Assembly (NCBI GenBank): GCA_021846685.1
Contig: JAJZWL010000007.1
Span: forward strand, 1-40,721
DNA length: 40,721 nucleotides
Reading direction: 5' to 3'
Origin: a bacterium
GTDB lineage: Bacteria > Patescibacteriota > Dojkabacteria > JAKAPS01 > JAJZLI01
Numbering within the stretch: position 1 is the first letter of the stretch; each line of letters starts with the position of its first letter. The position numbers were made by a program, and so were the translations under genes. Under the pieces are notes generated by a model. That model had not been told where the DNA came from. It did not search any database and saw nothing but the letters and a program-made list of their open reading frames with translations. Shown here piece by piece: positions 1,774-22,945 of the stretch.

Positions 1774-2196
1774 CTAGAAATTTTCTAGTGAAATAGAATA
1801 TTTTTTAAATTTGTCAAAATGACCTTTAATATCATGAGAGATGAGTTTCATGTCTTTTTCTATTGCGAGAGCCATATACAATGCATCATATATCGTAAGA
1901 CCATACTCTGTACTTATTTTAATAGTTTCTTGCATTAATGAAGAAGATAGAGGCTCTATTGTCCATGGATATGAAAATAGTTCTAATGATATTTTATCAG
2001 ATTCTTTTATTCCAATCTTTTTCCCACGAATTAATGCGTTTATAACCTCCAAAATTAAAAGTTCTGGAATGATAATATTTATTTCCCCAGTTAGAAGATT
2101 TGTAAAAATGTTTTTAGAGTTGCTTACTAAATCCTCATCTTTTTGATTAAACCATTTCACTGCAACTGACGCATCTAGTATGAACGTGTTATCCAT
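1774..2196 (-). CDS. PIN-domain toxin (VapC-like)
   Basis: FILDASVAVKWFNQKDED..., ELLILEVINAL, STEYGLTIYDALYMALAIEKDMKLISHD: acidic PIN motifs in the expected order. Adjacent to an AbrB-type antitoxin. Confidence 0.9.
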   Translation of the reverse strand: MDNTFILDASVAVKWFNQKDEDLVSNSKNIFTNLLTGEINIIIPELLILEVINALIRGKKIGIKESDKISLELFSYPWTIEPLSSSLMQETIKISTEYGLTIYDALYMALAIEKDMKLISHDIKGHFDKFKKYSISLENF

Positions 2197-2201
2197 GGCA
2201 A

Positions 2202-2498
2202 TTAGTGCTTTTCTCTATCGTCTGATATAAATTTTGTTAGATTTGTACTGGTTTTCTTGATATTTTTTGATAGTTGATTCCATTGTTTTTCTGCTTCCTC
2301 TGCTGTCATATATTTTTTCGCAACTTGATATGATGCATTTGGAAGTTTTTCAAGTTTAAAGCCTGACTTAGTAGTTTCTATCTTTACAAGGACATTACCT
2401 TCAACTGGAATTTTTAAAGCATCTCTAATCTTCTGAGGTATTGTCATCTGCCCCCTTTCCCTAATAGTTGTAACTTCTTGTATATAAACTGTATTCAT
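2202..2498 (-). CDS. AbrB/SpoVT-type antitoxin
   Basis: TTIRERGQMTIPQKIRDALKIPVEGNVLVKIE swapped-hairpin AbrB motif. Start moved from 2507 (inside the -10 box) to ATG at 2498. Confidence 0.88.
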   Translation of the reverse strand: MNTVYIQEVTTIRERGQMTIPQKIRDALKIPVEGNVLVKIETTKSGFKLEKLPNASYQVAKKYMTAEEAEKQWNQLSKNIKKTSTNLTKFISDDREKH

Positions 2499-2534
2499 AC
2501 TAATCATACTATACGATTAGTATGAATTTGTCAA
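2493..2534 (-). promoter_or_regulatory. Promoter and 13-bp palindromic operator of the AbrB/PIN module
   Basis: TTGACA (2534-2529), 17-nt spacer, TAGTAT (2511-2506). Perfect inverted repeat ATTCATACTAATC (2493-2505) / GATTAGTATGAAT (2515-2527) overlaps the -10 and the start codon. Confidence 0.7.
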
Positions 2535-2761: not shown

Positions 2762-3894
2762 TTATGGTATAAGTTGAGGTAAAGAAAAAAGAGCCTCCCC
2801 AAAAGGAATAATCTCAATTTCACCAATATGTTGACGGAATGTTCCACCATAAATCATATAACATTTTGCAAGAGGATAATCCTTTTTAAAAATATTGAGA
2901 TTATAAAGATCTGATGAGGAGATATTTCTCTTACTTTTAATTTCAAAAGCATGTAGTCCGTTCTTTCCATAAGCAATAAAATCAACTTCAATTCCACTTT
3001 CAGTTCTGTAGTAAAAAAGCTTATATTTTCGTTGTAAATAATCATTAATTGCACGTAAATTTTGAAAAAATAAACTTTCTAAGGCAATTCCACCAATTTC
3101 TTCTGGTTGATCTAAGGGACCCATAGATCTAATCGCTCGGTATACTCCAACATCAAAAAAGTAAAATTTATTGTGTGCTATAAGACGACGTTTGGCTCTT
3201 TTAGAAAAAACTGGGAGTCTAACACCCAAGAGTAAATCTTCAAGAGCAACAAAGTAATCTTCAACTACTTTGCGATTTACTGCTGCATCTCGAGATACTT
3301 CAGATATATTTAAAATGGATCCTTGAGAAAAACTGGCTGTTTCTAAAAAACGCGCAAACGCTCCTATGTTACGGCTGATTCCTTCTTGGATTACTTCTTG
3401 TTGTAGATATGTTTGTACATAACTAGACAAATAATTTTCTCTATTTTCTTCACTAAAAATTGAAGGAAGGCTACCAAAGCGCATGCACTCCTTCACATTA
3501 AAATCTGCCCCTAACTCCAAGGCAGTTAAAGGATACATAAAGTACGTTAAGGCTCTTCCTCCTAAAAGATTTTGACCACTTCGTCTCAATTTTCTAGCAC
3601 TTGAACCAGTCATAATGAATTTATATTTTTTCCTCTCAATAAGACGATGTACCTCATTAAGAAGTTCAGGAATTCGTTGGATTTCATCAATTATAATCCA
3701 ATCAATAAATGTATCTGGGATCATTTCAGAAAGACGTGAAGGATTAGCCAATAAACGATTGCATGTTTCTGCATGTAAAAGATCTATATAAAGTGCATTA
3801 GGAAAGTTGTTAAGAACCCAAGTTGTTTTACCTGTACCTCTACCTCCAAAAAGGAAAAAACTTTTATGAGTTGCTTCAATAATCTGTTATACAT
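2762..3894 (-). pseudogene. AAA+ ATPase (DUF4143-type) with N-terminal frameshift
   Basis: ORF 3751-2762 has IIDEIQRIPELLNEVHRLIE...FIMTGSSARKLRRSGQNLLGGRALTYFMYPLTALE and the C-terminal DUF4143 region (FYYRTESGIEVDFIAYGKNGLHAFEIKSK). The same frame continues upstream with IIEATHKSFFLFGGRGTGKTTWVLNNFPNALYIDLL (Walker A) but has no ATG before TAA. The natural start ATG at 3894 (MYNRLL...) lies in another frame. Confidence 0.75.
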
Positions 3895-4016: not shown

Positions 4017-7000
4017 TTATTGTATTACAACATAATTCCAAGAATAAGTACTGTTCTGCTCTGGTGCTTTTGTAAAGTTTATGCTAAATCCTGTTGTAGT
4101 TTCAGATACATATACACCAAGATTTGAAGCTCCTGTGAGGGCATTATTAGGAGTAATTATAACAATTGGAGTCATCTTATATGGTGAAGTGAATTTCAAA
4201 TTAAACTGATTTCCTAATGCAGGAGAAGATCCCGTAGTAAGAGTAATATTCCCTGATATATCAGTTGATCCTGCAGTTAAAGTTGTAGTAGCTCCTGTTC
4301 CTGAAGAAGCAGTTGGAGATATTTTTGGAAGTACACCAATTGGGACTATATGGCCTGCTATTAAAAAATCCCCTGTTATATCGAGTGTTCCTGATATATT
4401 AGTATTCCCAGTTATGTTTAAATTCCCATTACTACTCATACTAAGTACACTCATGACTCCAGAGGAGGACATTATTGGATTATAGTATTCATTTTTTACT
4501 AACATCAATATTTTACCTCTGAGATAAGTTTTGCCATTATATGTAAAGGTACTTGCTCCAGGTGTACTAGAAGAAAGAGAATTTAATGCCATTCCGACTA
4601 CTTGCCCAGGAGATGTTGCATCCTGCCCATATCCTGAAAAGATTGAGCCTGTTATCATATCCCCTGTATTAATTGCACCATTAAAATTTGTAACCTTTAC
4701 TAATACTCTCCCTGCAAGTGCTAAAGGAATCGACCCTGGTAAATATTGTTGATGTAAAGTAATTCCAGGATTCGTGGATATTACACCAAGGGTATTTTGA
4801 GAATACGGATGTGTAGTAGGAATAGCTACAAAATTGTTTATACTGTTTGAAGCAGAGTGTGTGCCACTAATACTTACTACATCCGCGGCAGAGGCACCAT
4901 TTGAACCTATTACATTTTCTGCAAGATCTGCTGGTATTCCTCCAGTTGTAATAGATCCTGCAAAGATAGCATTACCATATTTATCAAGAGAGAATATATC
5001 TTTGTAATTACCACTAATATTTGATGATATAGTAAAATCTCCAGGAGATGTAGAATGTGTTAATAGAGAAGAATAATATACTGTTGATACATTACCACTA
5101 TTATTCTGTCCTCCTATCTCATATACATACCCGTTGTATTCTACTGATGTGCCCCAACCTGTAGCAGCTGGCAGAGAACTCGTGGATGTCCAAGACCCTA
5201 GTGTTCCATTACTATTGATAGGGGCATAATCTACTGTCGAGACATAAGCATTACTACTGTTCTGTCCTCCTATCTCATATATATATCCATTGTATACTAT
5301 TGATGTGGCATCCCGGATAGCTACAGGAATGGATGTTGTGGCTGTCCATGCTCCTAGTGTTCCATTGCTATTGATAGGGGCATAATCTACTGTGGAGACA
5401 GTAGAGCTACCGTTCTGTCCTCCAATCTCATACACGTATCCATTGTACTCTACCGATGTGGCTTCGCTTGTAGCTACAGGAATGGAGGTCGTGGATGTCC
5501 ATGTTCCTAGTGCCCCATTGCTATTGATAGGGGCATAATCTACTGTGGAGACAGTAGAGCTACCGTTCTGTCCTCCTATCTCGTATACATATCCATTATA
5601 TTCTACTGATGTGGCCTGAAATGTAGTTTGTGGAAGAGAGGTTGTGGATGTCCATGCTCCTAGGGTCCCATTTCCATTGATAGCTGCATAATATACACTC
5701 GACAAATAACCACTACTGTTGGATCCTCCTATCTCATACACGTATCCATTGTATTCTACTGATGTGGCATAATCTGCTGCCACAGGAAGAGATGTTGTGG
5801 GTGTCCAGGATCCTAGTGTTCCATTTCCATTGATAGCTGCATAATATACTGTCGAGAGCCAATTACTTCCACTATACCCCCCTATCTCATACACGTATCC
5901 TCCATATGTCACAGAGGTTCCCGCTGATATCCCAACATTTGCAGTATTAGCTGTTGGGGGTGCTGTACTTGTTGTTGCAACTGAGCCTGAATCTGTATAG
6001 GTAACTGTAGTGCCTCCTGAAACTGATGCAAGAAACTTTTCTCCTCCTGAACTTGTTCCTTTATATATGTTATACCCCGTTGCACCTGTGTCCTGTGTCC
6101 AAGACAGTGCTATTGGATATGCTGTCGTTCCTTCTGCAGCCGATACCTCATTTGACACTGTTGTCTCTCCTGCAGTAGTTGTTGCTGTTATTTCATAATA
6201 ATATGTTGTTGAAGCTGCAAGATCTGCACCTACCGTACCTGATGTTCCCACTGCTGCTGCTAATCCAGATGGTACAGATATCAAAGGAAATGGGGTTGTT
6301 GAAGGCCAAGATGAAATTGCAGGATTTGGAGTAGAGTTATAGTTGTTTTTTCCAAAATTTAAACTAAATCCAGAAGATTGAATATCTAAAGGAGAAGCTG
6401 CAGTTATTAATGTATTACTCGGATTTGTAAGATTTATAGCTCCTCCAAAATTACTAGCCCCTTGTACTGATAACCCTCCTCCTATATTCATATCCCCCGA
6501 CAGATTTATATTTCCTCCATTATTCTGTGCTGTCTGAAGATTTGTTAAAACACTACCTTTAGTATTTTGAGATAATCCACCCTCTTTTAGTGCTTTAAAA
6601 TAATATACTGTCGATACAGTTTCACTGCTATTACCATTAACCCCGCCTATTTCATATGCATAGCTATTGTATACTACAGTAGTAGCATTTCTTATGGGAA
6701 CTGGAAGAGAGGTTGTTGCTGTCCAAGGACCCAAAGAGCCATTGCTATTGATTGGTGCATAATTTACTGAAGAATAAGCTGTGGATCCTCCACTACCTCC
6801 TCCTATCTCATATATATATCCTCCTGATTCTACAGTAGATTGAGAAGAAGAGATTCCTATATTGGGTAATGAAGATGTGGTTCTCCATCTGCCAATAGTC
6901 CCATCAGTGTTGATTGGTGCATAATACACTGTTGTTAATGCAAGGTTAGTTCCATAACTGAATCCCCCAACTACATATACATATCCATTGTATGTAACTG

Positions 7001-10000
7001 AATCAGGTTGAGATCCTATAGCTTGAGGTAGAGAAGTCGTCGATTGCCATGTACCTAATGTCCCATTACTGTTAATTAGTGCATATTCTACTGTGGATGT
7101 TGCAGCTGTTGTATATCCTCCTATCTCATACACATATCCATTGTATTCTACTGATGTGGCTCCATCTGTAGCAGCTGGTAAGGAGGTCGTGGCAGTCCAG
7201 GATCCTAGTGTCCCATTACTATTGATTGGGGCATAATCTACTGTTGAGACAGTACTACTACCATTGTATCCACCTATCTCATATACGTATCCGTTGTATT
7301 CTACTGATGTGGCATAACCTATCCCCACATTTGCAGTATTAGTTGTAGGTGGTGCTGTACTTGTTGTAGCAACTGAGCCTGAATCTGTATAGGAAACTGT
7401 TCCTCCTCCTGAAACTGATGCTAAAAATGTCTCTCCTCCACTTGCTGTCCCTTTATATATGTTATATCCTGTCGCACCTGTATCCTGTGTCCATGATAGT
7501 GCTATTGGATATGCTGTCGTTCCTTCTGCAGCCGACACCTCATTTGATACTGTTGTCTCTCCTGCAGTAGTTGTTGCTGTTATTTTATAATAATATGTAG
7601 TGGAAGCTGCTAAATCTGACCCTACACTACCAGAGGTACCAACACTTGCTGCCAAACCCGATGGAACAGATATCAAAGGTAGTGGAGTCGTAGCTGTCCA
7701 AGATCCTAATGTCCCATTGCTATTGATCGAGGCATAATCTACTGTAGATAACGGGTCACTACCACTGTTTAGACCTCCTATCTCATATACATATCCATTG
7801 TATTCTACAGATGTGGCACCTTGTGTTGCTACAGGCAGAGATGTCGTTGAAAGTACTCCAGTATCTGTATAACTATTAGTATTACTTGTATACTCTACAG
7901 AATTTGTAAAATTAGTATTACTCGATCTGTATATAATATATCCTGTTGCACCTGTAACTGCATTCCATGTAAGTGGAATCTGGTTCGTATTTGTTGTAGC
8001 AGTATTAGTTGTAGGAGGAGTTGTACTTGTTGTTGCAACTGAGCCTGAATCTGTATAGGTAACTGTAGTGCCTCCTGAAACTGATGCTAAAAATGTCTCT
8101 CCTCCACTTGCTGTCCCTTTATATATGTTGTATCCTGTAGCACCTGCGTCTTGAGTCCAAGACAGTGTTATTGGATATGCAGTTGTCCCTTCTGCCGCCG
8201 ACACTTCAGAAGATACTGTACTTTCTCCATTCGGAGTCGTTGCTGTTATTTCGTAATAATATGTAGTTGATGCCGCAAGATTTGATCCTACACTCCCAGA
8301 TGTCCCTACCGCAGCAGCTAATCCCGATGGAACAGATATAGGTACAGTCTTAACCGTCATAGCTTTTGATGGAAATGATTGTCCATTATTACTCTGTGCT
8401 ACTACCTCATAATAGTATGTTCCAGATGATAAAATTCCTCCCGTATTTGAAGTAGTTCCCGATGCAAGACCAGTTGGTGCAGGCAGTCCTTGTACATTTA
8501 GATCAGAAGACGCTAATAAAACATTCTCATTTACTGTTAAATCACTACTTGGTGTTTGCCCTAAACTTATAAGAGTATTATTTGCTCCATTACTACCATT
8601 TGAGGTTACAGAAAATATACCCGAATTCGTACTGTAAATCTGAGAGTAATATACACTATTCAGATATGTACCTCCTACACTACCTTGTCCTCCTATCTCA
8701 TATACATATCCATTGCTCTCTATACTTGTAGAATAAAATATCCCTTGAGAAAGGGGAGTGGTAGTTCCCCATGCTCCAAGTACTCCATTAGATTGAATTT
8801 GAGAATAATATACACTTGATAAATAAGTACTACCTGTATATCCTCCTATTACATATACATATCCTTTATACTCTATAGAACTTGCATGAATAATGTTTTG
8901 AGGAAGAGATACTGCTGTGTTCCACGAACCAAGAACTCCATTACTACCTATTTTAGCATAATATACACTCTGCAATGCATGATAACTTCCATTATTATTT
9001 TGACCTCCAAATAAATATATATATCCTCCATATTCTGCACTTGTCGCATAAATAATAGCCTGAGGTAGAGAAGTAGTTGTACTCCATGATCCGAGAGCTC
9101 CATTACTACCTATTTGAGCATAATATACAGTTGAGACATAACCTCCATTAAATCCCCCTATTACATATATATATCCGCTATATACAACTGATGTTGAAAA
9201 TTCTGTCAATTCAGGAATAGCAGTTGTACTATTCCATGCACCTAAAGAACCATTACTCTGAATTTTGGCATAGTATACATTTTTACTATTATATCCACCC
9301 ATTTCATATATATATCCATTATATTCTACTGATATAGCATTCTGATTAGCAGATGAAAGAGGAGTCGTTGCAGTCCATGCACCTAAGGAGCCATTACTCT
9401 TAGTTTGAGCATAATATACACTAGTAACGGGAAGGTTAGAAGAATTATCTCCTCCTATTTCATACACAAAACCTGCATATGTAACTGAAGTTGAACCTTG
9501 AAGTCCTTGAGGAAGAGAGGTTGTCGTATTAAAATTACTCAATTGACCTAAATTACTTGTATTTACAGATCCCATATTCAATCCAAAATTTGTTGAATTC
9601 AGTGTTAATGAAGACGCAGATGATATATTACTCCCATTACTATTTGTTAATGATATATTCCCTCCTATAGATGTACTCCCCCCTATAAAGGAATTTCCTC
9701 CTACTGTAAGATTATTCGCTATATTAGAATTTCCACCATTATTCTGAGTCACACTAAGTGCACTTTGAGGACTCGCAGATACATTTTCATTAACTATTTC
9801 TCCCGAAGAAGAAAGTGAGAAAAAATATACTGTTGAAACATGTGTAAGATTACCGTTTCTTCCCCCTAGAACATATACATACCCTCCATATGTTACTGAT
9901 GTTGCACCCCACAACTCCTGAGGCAATGAATTTGATGAAGTCACCCAGGAGCCTACTCCTCCTCCTGATAATAACGGGGCATAATATACCGTTGATAATT

Positions 10001-13000
10001 CACCACTATTACCAGATCCTCCCATTACATATACATACCCTCCAGACTCTATTGATGTCGCACCATACAACGCTTGAGGCAATGAATTTGATGAAGTCAC
10101 CCAGGAGCCTACTCCTCCTCCTGATAATAACGGTGCATAATATACTGTTGCAACAAGATTTGGGGTATCTCCCCCCATTTCATAGACATACCCATTATAT
10201 ATTACAGAGGTAGATACTGCAGTACCCACAGGAAGGGACTTTGTTGGTGTCCAAGTGCCTAAAGCTCCATTTCCGTTGATTGAGGCATAGTATACTGTTG
10301 CTAAATGAGTATTATCCCAACCTCCTATCTCATATACATATCCATTGTATTCTACTGAGGTGGCACTTCTTTCTGCAGTAGGAAGAGATGTAGTTGTACT
10401 CCATGAACCCACTCCTCCTCCCGATAATAATGGTGCATAATATACTACAGATGAATAACCACTACTACTTGCTCCTCCCATCACATATACATATCCTCCA
10501 TACTCTACTGAGGTGGCATTCTCCAATCCCTGAGGTAAGGAATTTGTAGAAGTCACCCAGGATCCTACTCCCCCTTCCGATAATAATGGTGCATAATATA
10601 CACTCGATGAATAACCACCACTACTATTAACTCCTCCTATCTCATACACATATCCACTATATTCTACTGATGTGGCACGATCCAAACCAAGAGGTAAGCT
10701 AGTAGTAAATGGTATATTTGAATTTGTATCAGTAAATGAGTTGGTAGAGGATATGTACTCTACAGAATTTGTAAAATTAGAATTACCAGATCTGTATATA
10801 ACATATCCTGTCGCACCTGTAACTGCATTCCAGATTAATGATACCTCATTTGTATTTGTTGTTGCTGTATTAGTTGTAGGCGGAGTTGTACTTGTTGTTC
10901 CTGTATTTCCTGAATTTGTATATGAAGTAGTTGACCCTCCTGAAACTGATGTTAGAAATGTCTCGCCTCCTGAACTTGTCCCTTTATATATATTGTAGCC
11001 TGTGGCTCCACTGTCTTGAGTCCACGACAAAGCTATTGGATATGCAGTTGTACCTTCTGCAGCCGAGACTTCAGACGACACTGTACTTTCTCCATTCGGT
11101 GTCGTTGCTGTTATTTCGTAATAATATGTAGTTGATGCCGCAAGATTTGATCCTACACTACCAGATGTGCCTACACTTGCTGCTAATCCCGATGGAGAAG
11201 ATACATCTTGATTTGCATTTACAGTTATACTTTGAGACGGAAATGATTGTCCATTGTTACTCTGTGCTACTACCTCATAATTATATACTCCTGCATTCAG
11301 TTGCCCTCCTCCTATACTTGGTGTCCCCGTAAGACTAGTTGGTGCAGACAGTCCCTGGACATTTAGATCTGCAGAAGTAAGCACAGTATTCCCATTTATA
11401 CTGTTAATCCCTGACCCTGAAGCTGATATATTACCTCCCAGAATTATATCTCCTGTATTATTCAAAACACCTGTGTTATTCAAACCTCCTGTGTTATTCA
11501 AAACACCATAATTATTGATCCCAGAAGACGATATAGTATTTGCAACATTCAAATTTCCCTGAGACGCACCAGATATATTCGCATTCGTATTAGGAGTAAC
11601 AGCTGAAACTCCTCCCCCATTATCAAAATAACTATTAGTTGAAGAAGTCTCTTTATAGGAATTTGTGAAATTAGAATTTACAGATCTATAGATATTATAT
11701 GAACTAGCTCCTAATACAGAATTCCAAGAAAGAGATACTCCATTTGTATCCGTTGTCGCAGTATTAGTTGTAGGTGGAGATGTACTTGATGTTGAGTAAT
11801 TTCCTGAATTTGTATAGGTACCCGTGCCATAAACTGAAGTTAGGTAGGTCTCGCCTCCTGAACTTGTTCCTTTATATATGTTGTATCCCGTTGCCCCACT
11901 AACCTGTGTCCAAGACAGTGTTATCGGATATGCTGTCGTTCCTTCTGTTGCAGAAACCTCATTTGACACTGTAGTTTCCCCATTCGGAGTTGTTGCTGTT
12001 ATTTCGTAATAATATGTAGTTGAAGCTGCAAGATAAGATCCTACACTTCCTGATGTCCCTACTGTTGCTGTTAACCCCGATGGCGCAGATACAGGGACAG
12101 TCGTAACCTTTATACTTTGAGACGGAAATGATTGTCCATTAGTATTAGGTTGATAATCATTAGTATGTTTTGCTACCACCTCATAATAGTATGTTCCAGG
12201 TATCAATGCTCCCCCTGTAACTGAAGGAACGCCTAGTAGACCAGTTGGAGTAGAAACTCCTTCAATATTTAAATTAGCAGATGTGAGTATAGTATTTCCA
12301 TTTATACTGTTATTTCCATAACCAGTAACTTGTAGATTTCCATTTATAGAGGCCTGTCCTTGTATACTAAATTGAGAATAATAAACCGTTGATAAATTAT
12401 TAAAACCTTCTCCTCCCATCACATATACATATCCTCCATATTCTACTGAGGTGGCGTGATTTAACCCTGTAGATACAGGTAAACTATTATTAGATGTTAT
12501 CCACGCACCTATTCCTCCCCCAGATAATAATGGTGCATAATACACACTTGATACCCACCATGAACCACTTCCATATCCTCCCATCACATATACATATCCT
12601 CCATACTCTACTGAGGTGGCTCCCCATATATCATTTAAAGGTAATTGATTACTAGAAGTTGTCCACGCCCCCACTCCTCCTCCAGACAATAATGGAGCAG
12701 AATATGTACTAGATACTTCATTTCCATTATTATTCTCCCCTCCCATGACATATACATACCCCCCATATGTAACTGAGGTAGCTTTACTCAAACTCTGGGG
12801 TAAAGAATTTGAAGAGGTACTCCACGTACCTATTCCTCCTCCGGATAATAATGGTGCATAATATACACTTGACGAATAACAACTATTATCACCACACCCG
12901 CCCATCACATATACATACCCTCCATACTCTACTGAGGTGGCACCATACAATCCCTGAGGTAAGGAATTTGTAGAAGCACTCCACGTACCTACTCCTCCCC

Positions 13001-15119
13001 CGGATAATAATGGTGCAGAATATACTGTCGATACTGAATTAATACCAGTACTCCCTCCTATCTCATATACATATCCTCCATATGTTACTGATGTAGATTG
13101 ATATAGCCCAATATTTGCAGTATTAGTTGTTGGCGGAGTTGTACTTGATGTTGAGGAATTTCCTGAATTTGTATAGGTTGTATTACCTCCATAAACTGAA
13201 GTTAAAAATGTCTCGCCTCCTGAACTTGTTCCTTTATATATATTGTATCCTGTCGCTCCACTAACCTGTGTCCAAGACAGTGTTATCGGATATGCAGTTG
13301 TCCCTTCTGCAGCCGAGACCTCATTTGACACTGTTGTCTCTCCTGCAGTTGTAGTTGCTGTTATTTCATAATAATACGTTGTGGAAGCTGCAAGATAAGA
13401 TCCTACACTCCCTGATGTCCCTACTGTTGCTGTTAACCCCGATGGTGCAGATATCAAAGGAAATGGAGTTGTTGTATTCCAAGAACCAACAGATCCATTT
13501 GTATTTATATGAGCATAATATACTGTGGATAATCCACCATTATTACCATATCCTCCCATCACATATACATATCCTCCATATTCTACTGAGGTCGCACCAT
13601 ACAATGCTTGAGGCAATGAATTTGTAGAGGTACTAAAAGGAGATACTAATATATTATTATTTGCATTAGGATTTATAGTAAGATTTGTACTACTGTTTAG
13701 TACATTTGCCCCGGTATTGTCTAAATTCAAAGATCCACCTCCAAAAGAAGCAGAACCTGGCATATTAATATTCCCAGATGAATTGAGTAAAAGAAGGTTA
13801 TTTGCTCCTACTCCAGAAACATAACCTTGCAACTCAGAAGCGTTAAGTCCCGGGATCTGTATATTAGGATATTGAGTGTAATTACTGTCTCCCTCCTTAG
13901 AATAAGGAGTAGCATGCGTTCCTTGTTCTACCTTTATTCTTTCAAAGGCTATATTTGATCCTCCTGTATTAGGATTTGCAACATTTAACTCTACAACTAC
14001 ATTAGTTGTATTTGTAGGAGTTGTCCCAGTAGCTGTTAAATATGTCCATCCTGTACCTGTTGCAAGTGAAAGAGTCCCTATGTCTGAAAGAAATGTTGTT
14101 CCATTATACGCTTCCAATACAGCACTGTTTGTGCCAGTACTTCCTTCATTAAACAGATAACCAGAGATTGTAATATTTATACCTGCTGGTACTGGCATAG
14201 GTTGGCTTAATAGAGTGGATGCAACAGTTCCACTATAAACAAAAAATGACCCCTGTGCAGATCCGCTATTACCAAGGGATCTCCAACCTTGAGAGATACT
14301 AGAAGAAGGTCCCCAACCTGCTAGACCTAGTTCTGCAGATGAGTTAAATAATAAATTAGGGTTATTCGTACCATTTCTAACTATACCACCTCCAAATGTA
14401 GAGGTTCCTGATAAATTTAAATTACCAGAACTTGTTACACAATTAGAACCAGAGAAAAAACATACACTTCCTGTACCTCCTGCTCCATTTAAAGTAAGTG
14501 TATTTGACCCTGTAGCATTTACCTGAGGATTTGTCCCCGATAAGGTTATATTCCCTGAACTGTTTGTTGAAACTATCTGATTGGGTCCAGTTGAAGAGGA
14601 AGGAGCTAATCCTTGAAGTAAAGCAGAATTCATTGCATATGCTACCTGGTCTATACTCTGCAAAGGAGTCATTTGTCCATCCCAAGCACTTCCGTTATAT
14701 ACATTTACTCCTAGATAATAATTAGAAGATCCTTCAAATAAAGATCCATTCAAAGCTGCATATTTACCTAATTGAGCATTAAAAACTCCATTCTGTATTT
14801 CATTTGAAGGAGTATTAGTATTAGAAAAATACTGAACCTCTCCCCATAAAGCTCCATTTAAAGTTCCCGAAGTAGTACCTGCAGAACTCATTGCTCCTGC
14901 AGTAGGAGTTGCACCAGGTGCACAGGCTGTGGCTATAGTAGAGTTATATATACAAAACGCTACATAATAATTACCAGTTAATAAATCCCCTTGAGAATTC
15001 TCTAGTCTTCCTTGATAATTTAATAACGATTGAGGAGCTGCAAATACACTACTAGACGCTAAAAATATAGCAAACGATATGCTTAATAATATAATAAGTG
15101 CCTTACGTAAAATTCTCAT
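4017..15119 (-). CDS. Giant secreted modular surface protein (3700 aa): signal peptide, CBM-like jelly-roll region, five 6-motif kelch propellers, FN3-like modules, tail-fibre-like C-terminus
   Basis: Single uninterrupted ORF; N-terminal MRILRKALIILLSISFAIFLASSSVFAAPQSLLNYQGRL; about 30 copies of [V/I]xY[G/N]GYVY[E/V][I/M]GG; six SxPSGLxAxVGTSGSVG...TTYYYEITATT...LSWTQxxGATGYNIYKG modules; C-terminal DLAENVIG...PLALAGRVLVKVTNFNGAINTGDMIT...KILMLVKNEYYNP. Confidence 0.92.
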   Translation of the reverse strand: MRILRKALIILLSISFAIFLASSSVFAAPQSLLNYQGRLENSQGDLLTGNYYVAFCIYNSTIATACAPGATPTAGAMSSAGTTSGTLNGALWGEVQYFSNTNTPSNEIQNGVFNAQLGKYAALNGSLFEGSSNYYLGVNVYNGSAWDGQMTPLQSIDQVAYAMNSALLQGLAPSSSTGPNQIVSTNSSGNITLSGTNPQVNATGSNTLTLNGAGGTGSVCFFSGSNCVTSSGNLNLSGTSTFGGGIVRNGTNNPNLLFNSSAELGLAGWGPSSSISQGWRSLGNSGSAQGSFFVYSGTVASTLLSQPMPVPAGINITISGYLFNEGSTGTNSAVLEAYNGTTFLSDIGTLSLATGTGWTYLTATGTTPTNTTNVVVELNVANPNTGGSNIAFERIKVEQGTHATPYSKEGDSNYTQYPNIQIPGLNASELQGYVSGVGANNLLLLNSSGNINMPGSASFGGGSLNLDNTGANVLNSSTNLTINPNANNNILVSPFSTSTNSLPQALYGATSVEYGGYVYVMGGYGNNGGLSTVYYAHINTNGSVGSWNTTTPFPLISAPSGLTATVGTSGSVGSYLAASTTYYYEITATTTAGETTVSNEVSAAEGTTAYPITLSWTQVSGATGYNIYKGTSSGGETFLTSVYGGNTTYTNSGNSSTSSTTPPTTNTANIGLYQSTSVTYGGYVYEIGGSTGINSVSTVYSAPLLSGGGVGTWSASTNSLPQGLYGATSVEYGGYVYVMGGCGDNSCYSSSVYYAPLLSGGGIGTWSTSSNSLPQSLSKATSVTYGGYVYVMGGENNNGNEVSSTYSAPLLSGGGVGAWTTSSNQLPLNDIWGATSVEYGGYVYVMGGYGSGSWWVSSVYYAPLLSGGGIGAWITSNNSLPVSTGLNHATSVEYGGYVYVMGGEGFNNLSTVYYSQFSIQGQASINGNLQVTGYGNNSINGNTILTSANLNIEGVSTPTGLLGVPSVTGGALIPGTYYYEVVAKHTNDYQPNTNGQSFPSQSIKVTTVPVSAPSGLTATVGTSGSVGSYLAASTTYYYEITATTPNGETTVSNEVSATEGTTAYPITLSWTQVSGATGYNIYKGTSSGGETYLTSVYGTGTYTNSGNYSTSSTSPPTTNTATTDTNGVSLSWNSVLGASSYNIYRSVNSNFTNSYKETSSTNSYFDNGGGVSAVTPNTNANISGASQGNLNVANTISSSGINNYGVLNNTGGLNNTGVLNNTGDIILGGNISASGSGINSINGNTVLTSADLNVQGLSAPTSLTGTPSIGGGQLNAGVYNYEVVAQSNNGQSFPSQSITVNANQDVSSPSGLAASVGTSGSVGSNLAASTTYYYEITATTPNGESTVSSEVSAAEGTTAYPIALSWTQDSGATGYNIYKGTSSGGETFLTSVSGGSTTSYTNSGNTGTTSTTPPTTNTATTNTNEVSLIWNAVTGATGYVIYRSGNSNFTNSVEYISSTNSFTDTNSNIPFTTSLPLGLDRATSVEYSGYVYEIGGVNSSGGYSSSVYYAPLLSEGGVGSWVTSTNSLPQGLENATSVEYGGYVYVMGGASSSGYSSVVYYAPLLSGGGVGSWSTTTSLPTAERSATSVEYNGYVYEIGGWDNTHLATVYYASINGNGALGTWTPTKSLPVGTAVSTSVIYNGYVYEMGGDTPNLVATVYYAPLLSGGGVGSWVTSSNSLPQALYGATSIESGGYVYVMGGSGNSGELSTVYYAPLLSGGGVGSWVTSSNSLPQELWGATSVTYGGYVYVLGGRNGNLTHVSTVYFFSLSSSGEIVNENVSASPQSALSVTQNNGGNSNIANNLTVGGNSFIGGSTSIGGNISLTNSNGSNISSASSLTLNSTNFGLNMGSVNTSNLGQLSNFNTTTSLPQGLQGSTSVTYAGFVYEIGGDNSSNLPVTSVYYAQTKSNGSLGAWTATTPLSSANQNAISVEYNGYIYEMGGYNSKNVYYAKIQSNGSLGAWNSTTAIPELTEFSTSVVYSGYIYVIGGFNGGYVSTVYYAQIGSNGALGSWSTTTSLPQAIIYATSAEYGGYIYLFGGQNNNGSYHALQSVYYAKIGSNGVLGSWNTAVSLPQNIIHASSIEYKGYVYVIGGYTGSTYLSSVYYSQIQSNGVLGAWGTTTPLSQGIFYSTSIESNGYVYEIGGQGSVGGTYLNSVYYSQIYSTNSGIFSVTSNGSNGANNTLISLGQTPSSDLTVNENVLLASSDLNVQGLPAPTGLASGTTSNTGGILSSGTYYYEVVAQSNNGQSFPSKAMTVKTVPISVPSGLAAAVGTSGSVGSNLAASTTYYYEITATTPNGESTVSSEVSAAEGTTAYPITLSWTQDAGATGYNIYKGTASGGETFLASVSGGTTVTYTDSGSVATTSTTPPTTNTATTNTNQIPLTWNAVTGATGYIIYRSSNTNFTNSVEYTSNTNSYTDTGVLSTTSLPVATQGATSVEYNGYVYEIGGLNSGSDPLSTVDYASINSNGTLGSWTATTPLPLISVPSGLAASVGTSGSVGSDLAASTTYYYKITATTTAGETTVSNEVSAAEGTTAYPIALSWTQDTGATGYNIYKGTASGGETFLASVSGGGTVSYTDSGSVATTSTAPPTTNTANVGIGYATSVEYNGYVYEIGGYNGSSTVSTVDYAPINSNGTLGSWTATTSLPAATDGATSVEYNGYVYEIGGYTTAATSTVEYALINSNGTLGTWQSTTSLPQAIGSQPDSVTYNGYVYVVGGFSYGTNLALTTVYYAPINTDGTIGRWRTTSSLPNIGISSSQSTVESGGYIYEIGGGSGGSTAYSSVNYAPINSNGSLGPWTATTSLPVPIRNATTVVYNSYAYEIGGVNGNSSETVSTVYYFKALKEGGLSQNTKGSVLTNLQTAQNNGGNINLSGDMNIGGGLSVQGASNFGGAINLTNPSNTLITAASPLDIQSSGFSLNFGKNNYNSTPNPAISSWPSTTPFPLISVPSGLAAAVGTSGTVGADLAASTTYYYEITATTTAGETTVSNEVSAAEGTTAYPIALSWTQDTGATGYNIYKGTSSGGEKFLASVSGGTTVTYTDSGSVATTSTAPPTANTANVGISAGTSVTYGGYVYEIGGYSGSNWLSTVYYAAINGNGTLGSWTPTTSLPVAADYATSVEYNGYVYEIGGSNSSGYLSSVYYAAINGNGTLGAWTSTTSLPQTTFQATSVEYNGYVYEIGGQNGSSTVSTVDYAPINSNGALGTWTSTTSIPVATSEATSVEYNGYVYEIGGQNGSSTVSTVDYAPINSNGTLGAWTATTSIPVAIRDATSIVYNGYIYEIGGQNSSNAYVSTVDYAPINSNGTLGSWTSTSSLPAATGWGTSVEYNGYVYEIGGQNNSGNVSTVYYSSLLTHSTSPGDFTISSNISGNYKDIFSLDKYGNAIFAGSITTGGIPADLAENVIGSNGASAADVVSISGTHSASNSINNFVAIPTTHPYSQNTLGVISTNPGITLHQQYLPGSIPLALAGRVLVKVTNFNGAINTGDMITGSIFSGYGQDATSPGQVVGMALNSLSSSTPGASTFTYNGKTYLRGKILMLVKNEYYNPIMSSSGVMSVLSMSSNGNLNITGNTNISGTLDITGDFLIAGHIVPIGVLPKISPTASSGTGATTTLTAGSTDISGNITLTTGSSPALGNQFNLKFTSPYKMTPIVIITPNNALTGASNLGVYVSETTTGFSINFTKAPEQNSTYSWNYVVIQ
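5060..5935 (-). repeat. Kelch block 5 (six motifs), including a 62-bp exact repeat
   Basis: Six GGYVYEIGG/NGYVYEIGG motifs. Identical 62-mers at 5362-5423 and 5515-5576, offset 153 bp (51 codons). Confidence 0.8.
5941..6287 (-). repeat. FN3-like module inserted before the first motif of kelch block 5
   Basis: SVPSGLAAAVGTSGTVGADLAASTTYYYEITATTTAGETTVSNEVSAAEGTTAYPIALSWTQDTGATGYNIYKG; flanked by TTPFPLI and VGISAGTSVTYGG. Confidence 0.75.
6580..7860 (-). repeat. Kelch block 4 (six motifs) interrupted by an FN3-like module (about 7332-7680)
   Basis: Six xGYxYEIGG-type motifs. FN3 copy sits between TTPLPLI and VGIGYATSVEYNGYVYEIGG. Confidence 0.75.
8000..8345 (-). repeat. FN3-like module between kelch blocks 3 and 4
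   Basis: SVPSGLAAAVGTSGSVGSNLAASTTYYYEITATTPNGESTVSSEVS..., preceded by GTYYYEVVAQSNNGQSFPSKAMTV. Confidence 0.7.
8640..9530 (-). repeat. Kelch block 3 (six motifs, most diverged)
   Basis: Motifs AGFVYEIGG, NGYIYEMGG, SGYIYVIGG, GGYIYLFGG, KGYVYVIGG, NGYVYEIGG. Confidence 0.75.
9820..10705 (-). repeat. Kelch block 2 (six motifs), including a 59-bp exact repeat
   Basis: Six GGYVYVMGG-type motifs. Identical 59-mers at 9919-9977 and 10075-10133, offset 156 bp (52 codons). Confidence 0.8.
10862..11205 (-). repeat. FN3-like module between kelch blocks 1 and 2
   Basis: SSPSGLAASVGTSGSVGSNLAASTTYYYEITATTPNGESTVSSEVS... Confidence 0.7.
11758..12095 (-). repeat. FN3-like module between kelch blocks 1 and 2
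   Basis: SAPSGLTATVGTSGSVGSYLAASTTYYYEITATTPNGETTVSNEVSATEG... Confidence 0.7.
12370..13640 (-). repeat. Kelch block 1 (six motifs) interrupted by an FN3-like module (about 13118-13455)
   Basis: Six GGYVYVMGG/EIGG motifs. FN3 copy between TTTPFPLI and IGLYQSTSVTYGGYVYEIGG. Confidence 0.75.
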
Positions 15120-15672: not shown

Positions 15673-16320
15673 TTATGTCTTATCTCTCAAGACGTTCTTC
15701 AACGCAGGTATATCTGTATTCCATTTATCTTCAAAAAACCACTCTTCTCCCTTAAATTGTAGCTTATATAAAGACTCCCTTTTATATACACTTCCTAGAT
15801 ATACATATTCCATATTTTCATCCTTTGCATACTCTATGGTTTTAGTCATCATACCTATACCTAGCCCCATTGAGATATACTCTGTGTCATAAAAAGGATA
15901 TGCGTAATGCAAAATTTTGTCTTTCAAAAAACATATACAATACCCTACCGTTCTTGCTTCTGTGTTAAATTTTAAAATAGTATTAAATGAAGTTTTTTTG
16001 TTTTTCACTATATCTTTTATTTTATTTGCAGACATAGTATTTTTCCCAAATTTTTGAGAATAAAAAGTTTTTCCCATAGCATGTATATTCCAGTCATAAT
16101 CTAGAAGGGGTAAATTCAATACTTCAAATCCTAGATTTGGATTTTTTCTTAAAACTCTTCTATTTTCAGAACTTAAAGAAAAATCTTTAATAGATACTCT
16201 TAAAGATTGGATTTTTTGCATTACACCCTCTCCTTTTCTTGTTAGGACAAAGCCTCTGTCATACATTGAAGGTATCTTGTCTTCATCTTTTTCTATAACT
16301 TCTTTTTCGTATATATACAT
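15673..16320 (-). CDS. ATE/Bpt-like aminoacyl-tRNA-protein transferase family protein (GNAT-fold C-terminal region)
   Basis: YDRGFVLTRKG...SLRVSIKDFSLSSENRRVLRKN matches the ATE motif LRVxxxxFxPSxSQRRVLKRN. FYDTEYISMGLGIGMMTKTIEYAKDENMEYVYLGSVYKRESLYKLQFKGEEWFFEDKW matches FxDPxxxxLSLGxYxxLxxIxxAxxxxxxYxYLGYYIxxxxKMxYKxxFRPxE. Confidence 0.6.
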   Translation of the reverse strand: MYIYEKEVIEKDEDKIPSMYDRGFVLTRKGEGVMQKIQSLRVSIKDFSLSSENRRVLRKNPNLGFEVLNLPLLDYDWNIHAMGKTFYSQKFGKNTMSANKIKDIVKNKKTSFNTILKFNTEARTVGYCICFLKDKILHYAYPFYDTEYISMGLGIGMMTKTIEYAKDENMEYVYLGSVYKRESLYKLQFKGEEWFFEDKWNTDIPALKNVLRDKT

Positions 16321-21546: not shown

Positions 21547-21831
21547 CTAGTGTTTATGTATTAATTCTTCTTTTACTTTCTCATCTAAAAAGATTTTTAC
21601 TAATGATTGATAAGGAACATCTTTCTTATTTGCTATCTCTTTAAGATTATCTAATAACATCTGGGGAATCCTTATAGTCATAGTCTTTGTTGAAGGTTTA
21701 AGATTAGAGAATGTTATATTCTGATATGCCTTACTCCAATCTATATATTCTGTACTATCATGAGTATTCCAAAATTCTCTCTCTTCTTCTTCATTTTTAA
21801 ATTGTGGTATTTGTCTTAATTTTTTATTCAT
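21547..21831 (-). CDS. brnA: BrnA-like CopG/RHH antitoxin
   Basis: EREFWNTHDSTEYIDWSKA..., MTIRIPQMLLDNLKEIANKKDVPYQSLVKIFLDEKV; overlaps the end of the BrnT-like gene. Confidence 0.85.
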   Translation of the reverse strand: MNKKLRQIPQFKNEEEEREFWNTHDSTEYIDWSKAYQNITFSNLKPSTKTMTIRIPQMLLDNLKEIANKKDVPYQSLVKIFLDEKVKEELIHKH

Positions 21832-22139
21832 AGTTTATTTATATTATTAAATATTAATCTTTCTTTTTTACTCTGATCTCTTGCAGATATTACTCTTATC
21901 TTATTATTCCTCTTTGTAAATACAATAAATAACAATCTATTATTCCCGGTAACCCCTAAAGCCTGAAATCTGATCTCTTTACTAGAATGATTTTTATCTT
22001 CATTAATAATTAATGGTTTATTATAAAATACTTCTTCACATTCCTTTATACTTACTCTATGCTTTAATTTATTTTTTAATAAATTACCTTCATCCCAATC
22101 AAAACCTTCAAATTTCTTAAAATCAAAACCTGTTCCCAT
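21828..22139 (-). CDS. brnT: BrnT-like toxin
   Basis: FDWDEGNLLKNKLKHRVSIKECEEVFYNKPLII...RFQALGVTGNNRLLFIVFTKRNNKIRVISARDQSKKER. Start moved from 22166 (inside promoter spacer) to ATG at 22139. Confidence 0.87.
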   Translation of the reverse strand: MGTGFDFKKFEGFDWDEGNLLKNKLKHRVSIKECEEVFYNKPLIINEDKNHSSKEIRFQALGVTGNNRLLFIVFTKRNNKIRVISARDQSKKERLIFNNINKL

Positions 22140-22148
22140 ATGTAAATT

Positions 22149-22177
22149 ATAGTACAATACATTCAATTAATTGTCAA
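22149..22177 (-). promoter_or_regulatory. Promoter of the BrnTA module
   Basis: TTGACA (22177-22172), 17-nt spacer, TACTAT (22154-22149), 9 nt to ATG at 22139. Confidence 0.7.
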
Positions 22178-22375: not shown

Positions 22376-22606
22376 TTATTTGTTATTGTATTCCCATATT
22401 ATTCTTACATCTCCAGTCACCCAACTGCTCCAAACATTATCAAACTCTATACTATTTACTTTATAGGTCCTTAATGATGGATAATTTGGATTATTTGACA
22501 ATAGATTCAATGATTTTAAAATTCTTTTTTGAAGTAAGGTATTTCTTTTTGCAATCTTTCTATAATCTTTATTAAAACTAGAAGTAAAAATTAATTGATA
22601 CATCAT
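22376..22606 (-). CDS. YafQ/RelE-family mRNA interferase toxin
   Basis: MYQLIFTSSFNKDYRKIAKRN...LKSLNLLSNNPNYPSLRTYKVN...VWSSWVTGDVRIIWEYNNK: RelE-fold YafQ pattern. Confidence 0.88.
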   Translation of the reverse strand: MMYQLIFTSSFNKDYRKIAKRNTLLQKRILKSLNLLSNNPNYPSLRTYKVNSIEFDNVWSSWVTGDVRIIWEYNNK

Positions 22607-22914
22607 TTTACAATCTTATTCAAATATCTCTCTAATTCACCCTTATTTTTTGTATCTACAATAATACCTTTATCTGTTTTACCTTCTTCTATACTCTTCA
22701 TCTCTTCATCAGATAGAGGTACTGGATCGTATGATAAAGATAAATCAAATGGTATACTATTTTTATCTACTATTTGTTTAAAAAATATTGTTATTGCCTG
22801 AGAAGTTGTTAATCCTAATTCAGATAATATAGATTCAACCCTATCTTTTAAAGGTTTCTGAATCCTTATTTGGGTATTATCTTCTTTCTTTATACTTCTA
22901 TTATCCATAATCAT
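22603..22914 (-). CDS. RelB/DinJ-family antitoxin
   Basis: IRIQKPLKDRVESILSELGLTTSQAITIFFKQIVDKNSIPFDLS; overlaps the toxin start. Start at 22914 or 22908 preferred to 22938. Confidence 0.88.
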   Translation of the reverse strand: MIMDNRSIKKEDNTQIRIQKPLKDRVESILSELGLTTSQAITIFFKQIVDKNSIPFDLSLSYDPVPLSDEEMKSIEEGKTDKGIIVDTKNKGELERYLNKIVK

Positions 22915-22923
22915 AAATACATC

Positions 22924-22945
22924 ACAAATGTAATGCATTTGTCAA
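22924..22945 (-). promoter_or_regulatory. -35 region and palindromic operator candidate for YafQ/DinJ
   Basis: TTGACA (22945-22940) overlaps inverted repeat ACAAATG-taatg-CATTTGT (22924-22942). The -10 is weak. Confidence 0.5.

Follow-up and report, generated by a model that had tools for sequence, protein, structure and literature searches.

Five predicted six-bladed kelch propellers in one giant secreted protein of a CPR-like bacterium

Locus and domain layout

The window, by which we mean the whole 40,721-nt stretch of DNA that was analysed, carries on its reverse strand a gene for a giant kelch protein, whose features are collected in Table 1. The signal peptide proposed in the original prediction is clear from the sequence: the N-terminus is hydrophobic, it ends in a cleavage-like site and it stands out in the hydropathy scan. 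Secretion by way of a Sec-type signal peptide is a well-supported prediction. The same scan revealed no membrane segment at the C-terminus, and no LPXTG motif was seen there; a sortase gene is present in the source genome.

Table 1. Features of the giant kelch protein gene, in window coordinates
Feature	Position	Strand	Basis
Promoter-like TTGACA-17-TATATT, about 25 nt 5′ of the start codon	15144..15172	(-)	read in sequence
Giant kelch protein gene (3,700 aa; mature 375 kDa; pI 4.1)	4017..15119	(-)	ORF
Signal peptide, aa 1–28 (...SSSVFA/AP), sole hydrophobic segment of the protein	15036..15119	(-)	sequence and Kyte-Doolittle scan
Conserved N-terminal module, aa 29–240 ('LNYQGRL...MTPLQSIDQVAYA')	14400..15035	(-)	family comparison
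CBM/phage-tail-like module, aa 245–415, ending in 'EQGTHATPY'	13875..14387	(-)	phrog_5339, E 1.6e-4
Kelch propeller 1, blades 1–6	12345..13652	(-)	motif and repeat HMM
FN3-like module in DA loop, blades 1/2 of propeller 1	13113..13448	(-)	
Linker: fibre-like stretches and FN3-like modules (GH85_C-type)	10743..12344	(-)	
Kelch propeller 2, blades 7–12	9771..10742	(-)	motif and repeat HMM
Short tail-fibre-like linker	9561..9770	(-)	sequence
Kelch propeller 3, blades 13–18	8604..9560	(-)	motif and repeat HMM
Linker containing FN3-like modules	7866..8603	(-)	
Kelch propeller 4, blades 19–24	6570..7865	(-)	motif, repeat HMM and AF2/Foldseek
FN3-like module in DA loop, blades 1/2 of propeller 4; lacking in the sister-species orthologue	7329..7667	(-)	
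Short tail-fibre-like linker	6321..6569	(-)	sequence
Kelch propeller 5, blades 25–30	5025..6320	(-)	motif, repeat HMM and AF2/Foldseek
FN3-like module in DA loop, closing D strand/blade 1 of propeller 5; lacking in the sister-species orthologue	5937..6275	(-)	
Conserved C-terminal stalk region ('ADLAENVIG...ALAGRVLVKV...NGAINTGDMITGS')	4350..5024	(-)	
C-terminal beta-sandwich, H-type-lectin/tail-fibre-like (weak)	4020..4322	(-)	

Several neighbouring genes on the same strand could be assigned. Upstream of the giant gene, the gene at window positions 15673–16320 (-) matches the arginyl-tRNA-protein transferase C-terminal domain (ATE_C, 33 bits), which has a GNAT-like fold. Toxin–antitoxin-like genes lie at 1774–2507 (-), 21828–22166 (-) and 22603–22938 (-), comprising a PIN domain with a small upstream partner, a BrnT-type toxin and a RelB-type antitoxin. 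The gene at 2762–3751 (-) codes for an AAA_14/DUF4143 ATPase and is longer than the listed ORF. A break in this gene was ruled out, as the P-loop (GGRGTGKTT) is found upstream in the same frame.

The conserved N-terminal module shows 70–87% identity among other members of the family and weaker similarity outside it. The next module had been described as CBM-like; it has no Pfam match, and the match to a PHROG virion structural protein lends weak support to a CBM/tail-like character. At the other end of the chain, the last 100 residues are predicted to form a beta-sandwich (pLDDT about 55–87), the remaining model being of low confidence. Compared with BFVD, this model matched predicted proteins of phages and giant viruses (E 1.8e-10 to 1.5e-6), one of them over 113 columns at 2.3 Å, and its match to a solved tailspike was weak (E 0.02). 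The tail-fibre-like C-terminus of the original prediction is thus moderately supported by a model that is partly of low confidence. As to an H-type lectin identity, PF09458 scored 15.4 bits, under its cut-off of 24, and the assignment was left unproven. Searching PDB sequences with either terminal region or with the first linker returned no significant match.

Collagen-like stretches and FN3-like modules had both been proposed as linkers between propellers. For the former, no obvious Gly-X-Y periodicity was seen; by eye, the Gly/Asn/Ser linkers resemble phage tail-fibre sequence. FN3-like modules do serve as linkers, but three of them sit inside rings. Their best Pfam match is GH85_C (PF21910; 32–34 bits against a cut-off of 27), whereas Pfam fn3 reaches 11.9 bits against a cut-off of 25. 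The module occurs in six copies with 70–88% DNA identity to the reference copy.

Thirty repeats and ring closure

A regular-expression search finds 30 xGYVYxxGG motifs in the protein, and a repeat HMM built from its own repeats detects exactly 30 strong domains (45–84 bits), all remaining matches scoring about 0 bits or below. Once the FN3-like insertions in blocks 1 and 4 are recognised, the blades group as 6/6/6/6/6: motif spacing inside blocks is 47–55 aa, and it is 166 and 168 aa at these insertions. Both the thirty motifs and the five groups of six proposed at the outset therefore hold on recounting. Two Pfam models, Kelch_1 (PF01344; 149 bits against a cut-off of 20.1) and the KLHDC2/KLHL20 kelch domain (PF24681; 160 bits against 50), score so strongly that the 30-repeat pattern is not a matter of chance. 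With double-glycine-motif repeats above the Pfam cut-off, the protein belongs to the kelch beta-propeller superfamily.

Each repeat can be read as four strands, A ('ATSVEY'), B ('GYVYEIGG'), C ('STVYYAPI') and D ('GSWTATTSLP'). In the sequence, the G-x-W D strand is missing from repeats 6, 12, 18, 24 and 30, and a lone 'TTSLP'-type D strand stands ahead of each of the five blocks. Because an orphan D strand comes first and the sixth repeat is without one, the rings are expected to close through an N-terminal D strand. The kelch rings of KLHL20 and Keap1, in contrast, are closed by a C-terminal A strand (PMC6720452, PMC4668279).

Structure prediction was run on two of the blocks, as an AlphaFold2 model of residues 2415–3385 covering propellers 4 and 5. 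The pLDDT is mostly 80–92 in propeller 5 and about 70–88 over most of the length of propeller 4, and it is mostly below 50 in linkers and FN3 inserts. In Foldseek comparisons, propeller 5 aligned over 274 columns with complete six-bladed KLHL12 and SAKe6 targets of 281–289 residues (TMt 0.83–0.86, rmsd 2.2–2.4 Å). A second set of alignments extends over about 355 columns to Keap1 (TMt about 0.8); we infer that it corresponds to propeller 4 with its insertion, which its length fits. The models thus predict a closed six-bladed propeller with high confidence for propeller 5 and with moderate confidence for propeller 4 with its insertion. Propellers 1–3 carry the same closure signature and would form closed six-bladed rings as well. 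Taken together with the relatives, whose arrays are mostly multiples of six, these data bear out the closed propellers of the original prediction: the 3,700-residue chain is very likely a fibre bearing five closed kelch rings of six blades each.

The loops of the blades differ markedly in their variability. BC loops are distinct in 29 of 30 cases, with lengths of 5–12 residues, and all 25 parsed DA loops are distinct, two of them being FN3 junctions. The CD loops have 9 residues in all cases. In the kelch propellers of Keap1 and KLHL20, the BC and DA loops make up the ligand face (PMC4668279; PMC6720452). Judged from the sequence, the hypervariable BC and DA loops would thus support a recognition role.

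Relatives and array growth

The source genome comprises 783,518 bases at 92.8% completeness and lacks uL30 (PF00327), which is present in 13 of 14 control genomes. The absence of this ribosomal protein is a hallmark of CPR. The small size and the lack of uL30, a single marker in a 93% complete genome, are supportive of a CPR/Patescibacteria-like identity, and the bacterium encoding the giant kelch protein is probably host-dependent.

A search of 97 genomes at E 1e-10 recovered kelch-array relatives from every one of the eight family genomes and from one of the two remaining members of the order, but from no other genome; one additional genome of the class was matched by a broader kelch family model. 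Large kelch arrays are thus well supported as a family-level expansion, with two or more kelch giants per genome. One chain, itself truncated, reaches 42 blades, and the four arrays counted in one 0.9 Mb genome add up to 102 kelch blades. The related contigs are MAGs. Their bin names look like mine sites and may tie them to a CPR survey of acid mine drainage sediments in southeast China (PMC12153355).

To count blades, we used an HMM that started from the window repeats and was refined iteratively with those of the relatives. Automatic counting of complete arrays in the relatives and the window gave 38 of six, 3 of twelve and 3 of eighteen blades, that is, 44 of 54; after inspection, which restored missed blades in L061, L066 and L074, about 47 of 52 arrays have 6, 12 or 18 blades, although the counted arrays share ancestry and are not independent observations. 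True five-blade arrays exist in L015 (last block), L056 and L060, L067 has an apparent four-blade array and L062 a single isolated repeat match. A block size of six thus holds throughout the window protein but not in every relative, and six blades represent a strong preference rather than a law. As to the 5×6 architecture in related genomes, multiples of six are mostly kept, and the proteins of the sister species have at least 7×6 (L049) and at least 6×6 (L050) blades, both being 5′-truncated at contig ends. Runs of 12 and 18 blades without linkers also occur among the relatives. In strand number, two or three six-bladed rings would be as consistent with such runs as one large ring.

Several of the related proteins have features of their own. 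The source genome itself (G000) contains a second giant kelch protein (C29; L009:4184-9898), 1,904 aa long, whose 12 blades follow one another without linkers. The gene directly after it matches the WxL-interacting protein peptidoglycan-binding domain (PF06030) at 18.5 bits, below the cut-off, and its product is a possible anchoring partner. The L061 ORF (G005:C32; 3398-13747) contains exact repeats of about 595 nt, and assembly may have created its run of 18 linker-free blades. In L060:1277-2974, a different repeat ('GYSILGSNGNIYYFG') follows the five-blade array at ORF residues 300–370, possibly another propeller type fused to the kelch array. Long Tyr/Trp/Cys-rich insertions ('YSYQYCYYYPYTYTYYEPVYVWYY...') are found in propeller loops of L074 (2205-4295) and L067 (2446-4743).

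How such arrays grow can be approached through a tree of propellers. Propellers 4 and 5 of the window protein group with the matching C-terminal propellers of two sister species, on branches that are in part poorly supported. Propeller 3 falls together with the first complete propeller of one of these species, and propellers 1 and 2 are most closely related to each other. In G001, propellers alternate in type, in step with spacers that are alternately long (about 300 aa, FN3-like) and short (about 135 aa); blade identity peaks slightly at offset 12 in L049, L050 and L015. On the strength of the tree grouping, the alternation and the offset-12 peak, arrays appear to grow through duplication of whole propellers or propeller pairs.

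All three in-ring FN3-like modules (propellers 1, 4 and 5) are located in DA loops and share their flanks, with 'TTPFPLIS' or a similar sequence before and 'NTAN' after the module. At the insertion sites of propellers 4 and 5, the orthologous propellers of the sister species read straight across, and no comparable insertion gap was found in blocks of multi-propeller relatives. In a tree of the modules, the insert at residue 559 groups with the copy at 1013, and the inserts at 2486 and 2950 group with the copy at 2264; the grouping partners are neighbouring linker copies of the same protein. The simplest reading is a lineage-specific copying of FN3-like modules into closed propellers; the alternative is their loss in the sister species.

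Possible function and wider context

We consider it fairly probable that the giant kelch protein is a secreted multivalent binding fibre of a CPR-like bacterium, made of six-bladed rings and spacers, with a diversified ligand face and growth by propeller duplication. In this arrangement, the conserved N-terminal and the tail-fibre/lectin-like C-terminal modules would bracket a chain of independent closed kelch rings, joined by fibre-like and FN3-like spacers, and each ring would be closed by an N-terminal D strand completing the sixth blade. The face formed by BC and DA loops would be diversified from blade to blade, three propellers adding an FN3-like module in a DA loop, and would presumably bind host-surface or matrix ligands, either glycans or proteins. 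Five propellers could confer avidity or several specificities, and duplication of whole propellers or pairs would keep the blade count mostly a multiple of six. Surface display, ligand binding and a role in host or substrate contact or in symbiosis are putative, and the adhesin role suggested at the outset is plausible.

The main rival is a surface-layer or biofilm-matrix protein, whose propellers would be spacers or units of kelch-to-kelch self-assembly. S, G, T and N make up half of the residues, the best structural matches include designed six-fold SAKe kelch proteins, one of them with 'self-assembled' in its title, and genomes encode more than one kelch giant, all of which fits a matrix role; yet variation is concentrated in the BC and DA loops of an otherwise conserved blade, as for a recognition face, and propeller number varies among close relatives, so we regard this role as rather unlikely. 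A domesticated or resident phage tail fibre, suggested by the C-terminal fold and the fibre-like linkers, is improbable given the clear Sec-type signal peptide and the occurrence of kelch arrays throughout the bacterial family. Moreover, the window carries chromosomal housekeeping genes (by sequence, for a sigma factor and MetG-like, FtsK-like and TatD-like proteins), the viral contigs searched gave no relative and phage collections yielded one weak partial match.

Catalysis offers another reading, in which the chain would be an extracellular enzyme with kelch propellers of the sialate mutarotase/epimerase or galactose-oxidase type. The mutarotase/NanM kelch families are matched weakly: the Pfam NANM model passes, like other kelch models, when summed over the whole protein (67.9 against 45), but the NCBIfam epimerase (YjhT/NanM) and permuted mutarotase models reach 29.1 against 256 bits and 79.5 against 243 bits. 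Since the blades of one propeller resemble each other, no unique catalytic residues stand out, and galactose oxidase is seven-bladed, unlike the six-bladed rings here; an enzyme chain is thus very improbable. We give the least credence of all to an open repeat array or an assembly artefact, in which the sixes would be coincidental or made by assembly. The gene is repetitive, short-read MAGs can collapse or expand repeats and exact repeats do occur in one related gene, L061. However, no exact repeat in the window gene reaches 80 nt, which makes misassembly or short-read repeat collapse unlikely, multiples of six recur across independent assemblies, and every block has the closure signature, accompanied by a closed predicted model.

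Kelch propellers and repetitive propellers are already known. The BTB-kelch proteins KLHL12, KLHL20 and Keap1 share with the giant protein the fold, the six blades, the double-glycine motif and the BC/DA ligand face; the giant protein differs in being secreted, in having five propellers per chain and in the lack of a BTB domain, for which it has no Pfam match and which sets it apart from the BTB-kelch (KLHL) family. SAKe6 proteins, symmetric six-bladed kelch designs that rank with the closest structural matches (TMt 0.81–0.86), consist of a single designed propeller, whereas the giant protein is natural and has five in a chain. Phage tail fibres and tailspikes (BFVD A0A6J5T5J5, LCMAC202 tail fibre; phi297 gp61) are similar in the C-terminal sandwich and fibre-like linkers, but the giant protein has its own signal peptide, a chromosomal context and kelch propellers. 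Pereira and Lupas (2022) described highly repetitive beta-propellers with amplified and homogenised blades, kelch being among the listed families (PMC9218822). Their globally repetitive propellers often exceed the usual blade number of the lineage, and the largest set, of 47 blades, resisted division into rings (PMC9218822); the counts found here, in contrast, are mostly multiples of six and point to growth by whole propellers. In open-access full text we found no natural chain of five to seven kelch rings, no kelch arrays in Patescibacteria/CPR, no kelch adhesins or giant kelch proteins and no FN3-like modules inside kelch rings, all of which is weak evidence of absence.

The family thus presents a natural case of propeller amplification filtered to a fixed ring size, including linker-free runs of 12 and 18 blades, and the fixed ring size bears on how expanding repeat proteins retain a closed fold. 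A more tentative proposal is that kelch propellers serve this CPR family as a recognition array able to evolve: propellers or pairs would be duplicated or lost between species, binding-face loops would diversify and FN3-like modules would be copied into DA loops, altering host range or adhesion while the six-blade constraint is kept. Little is known of host recognition and attachment in CPR bacteria, and these family-wide giant secreted multi-propeller proteins are a testable candidate for that role.
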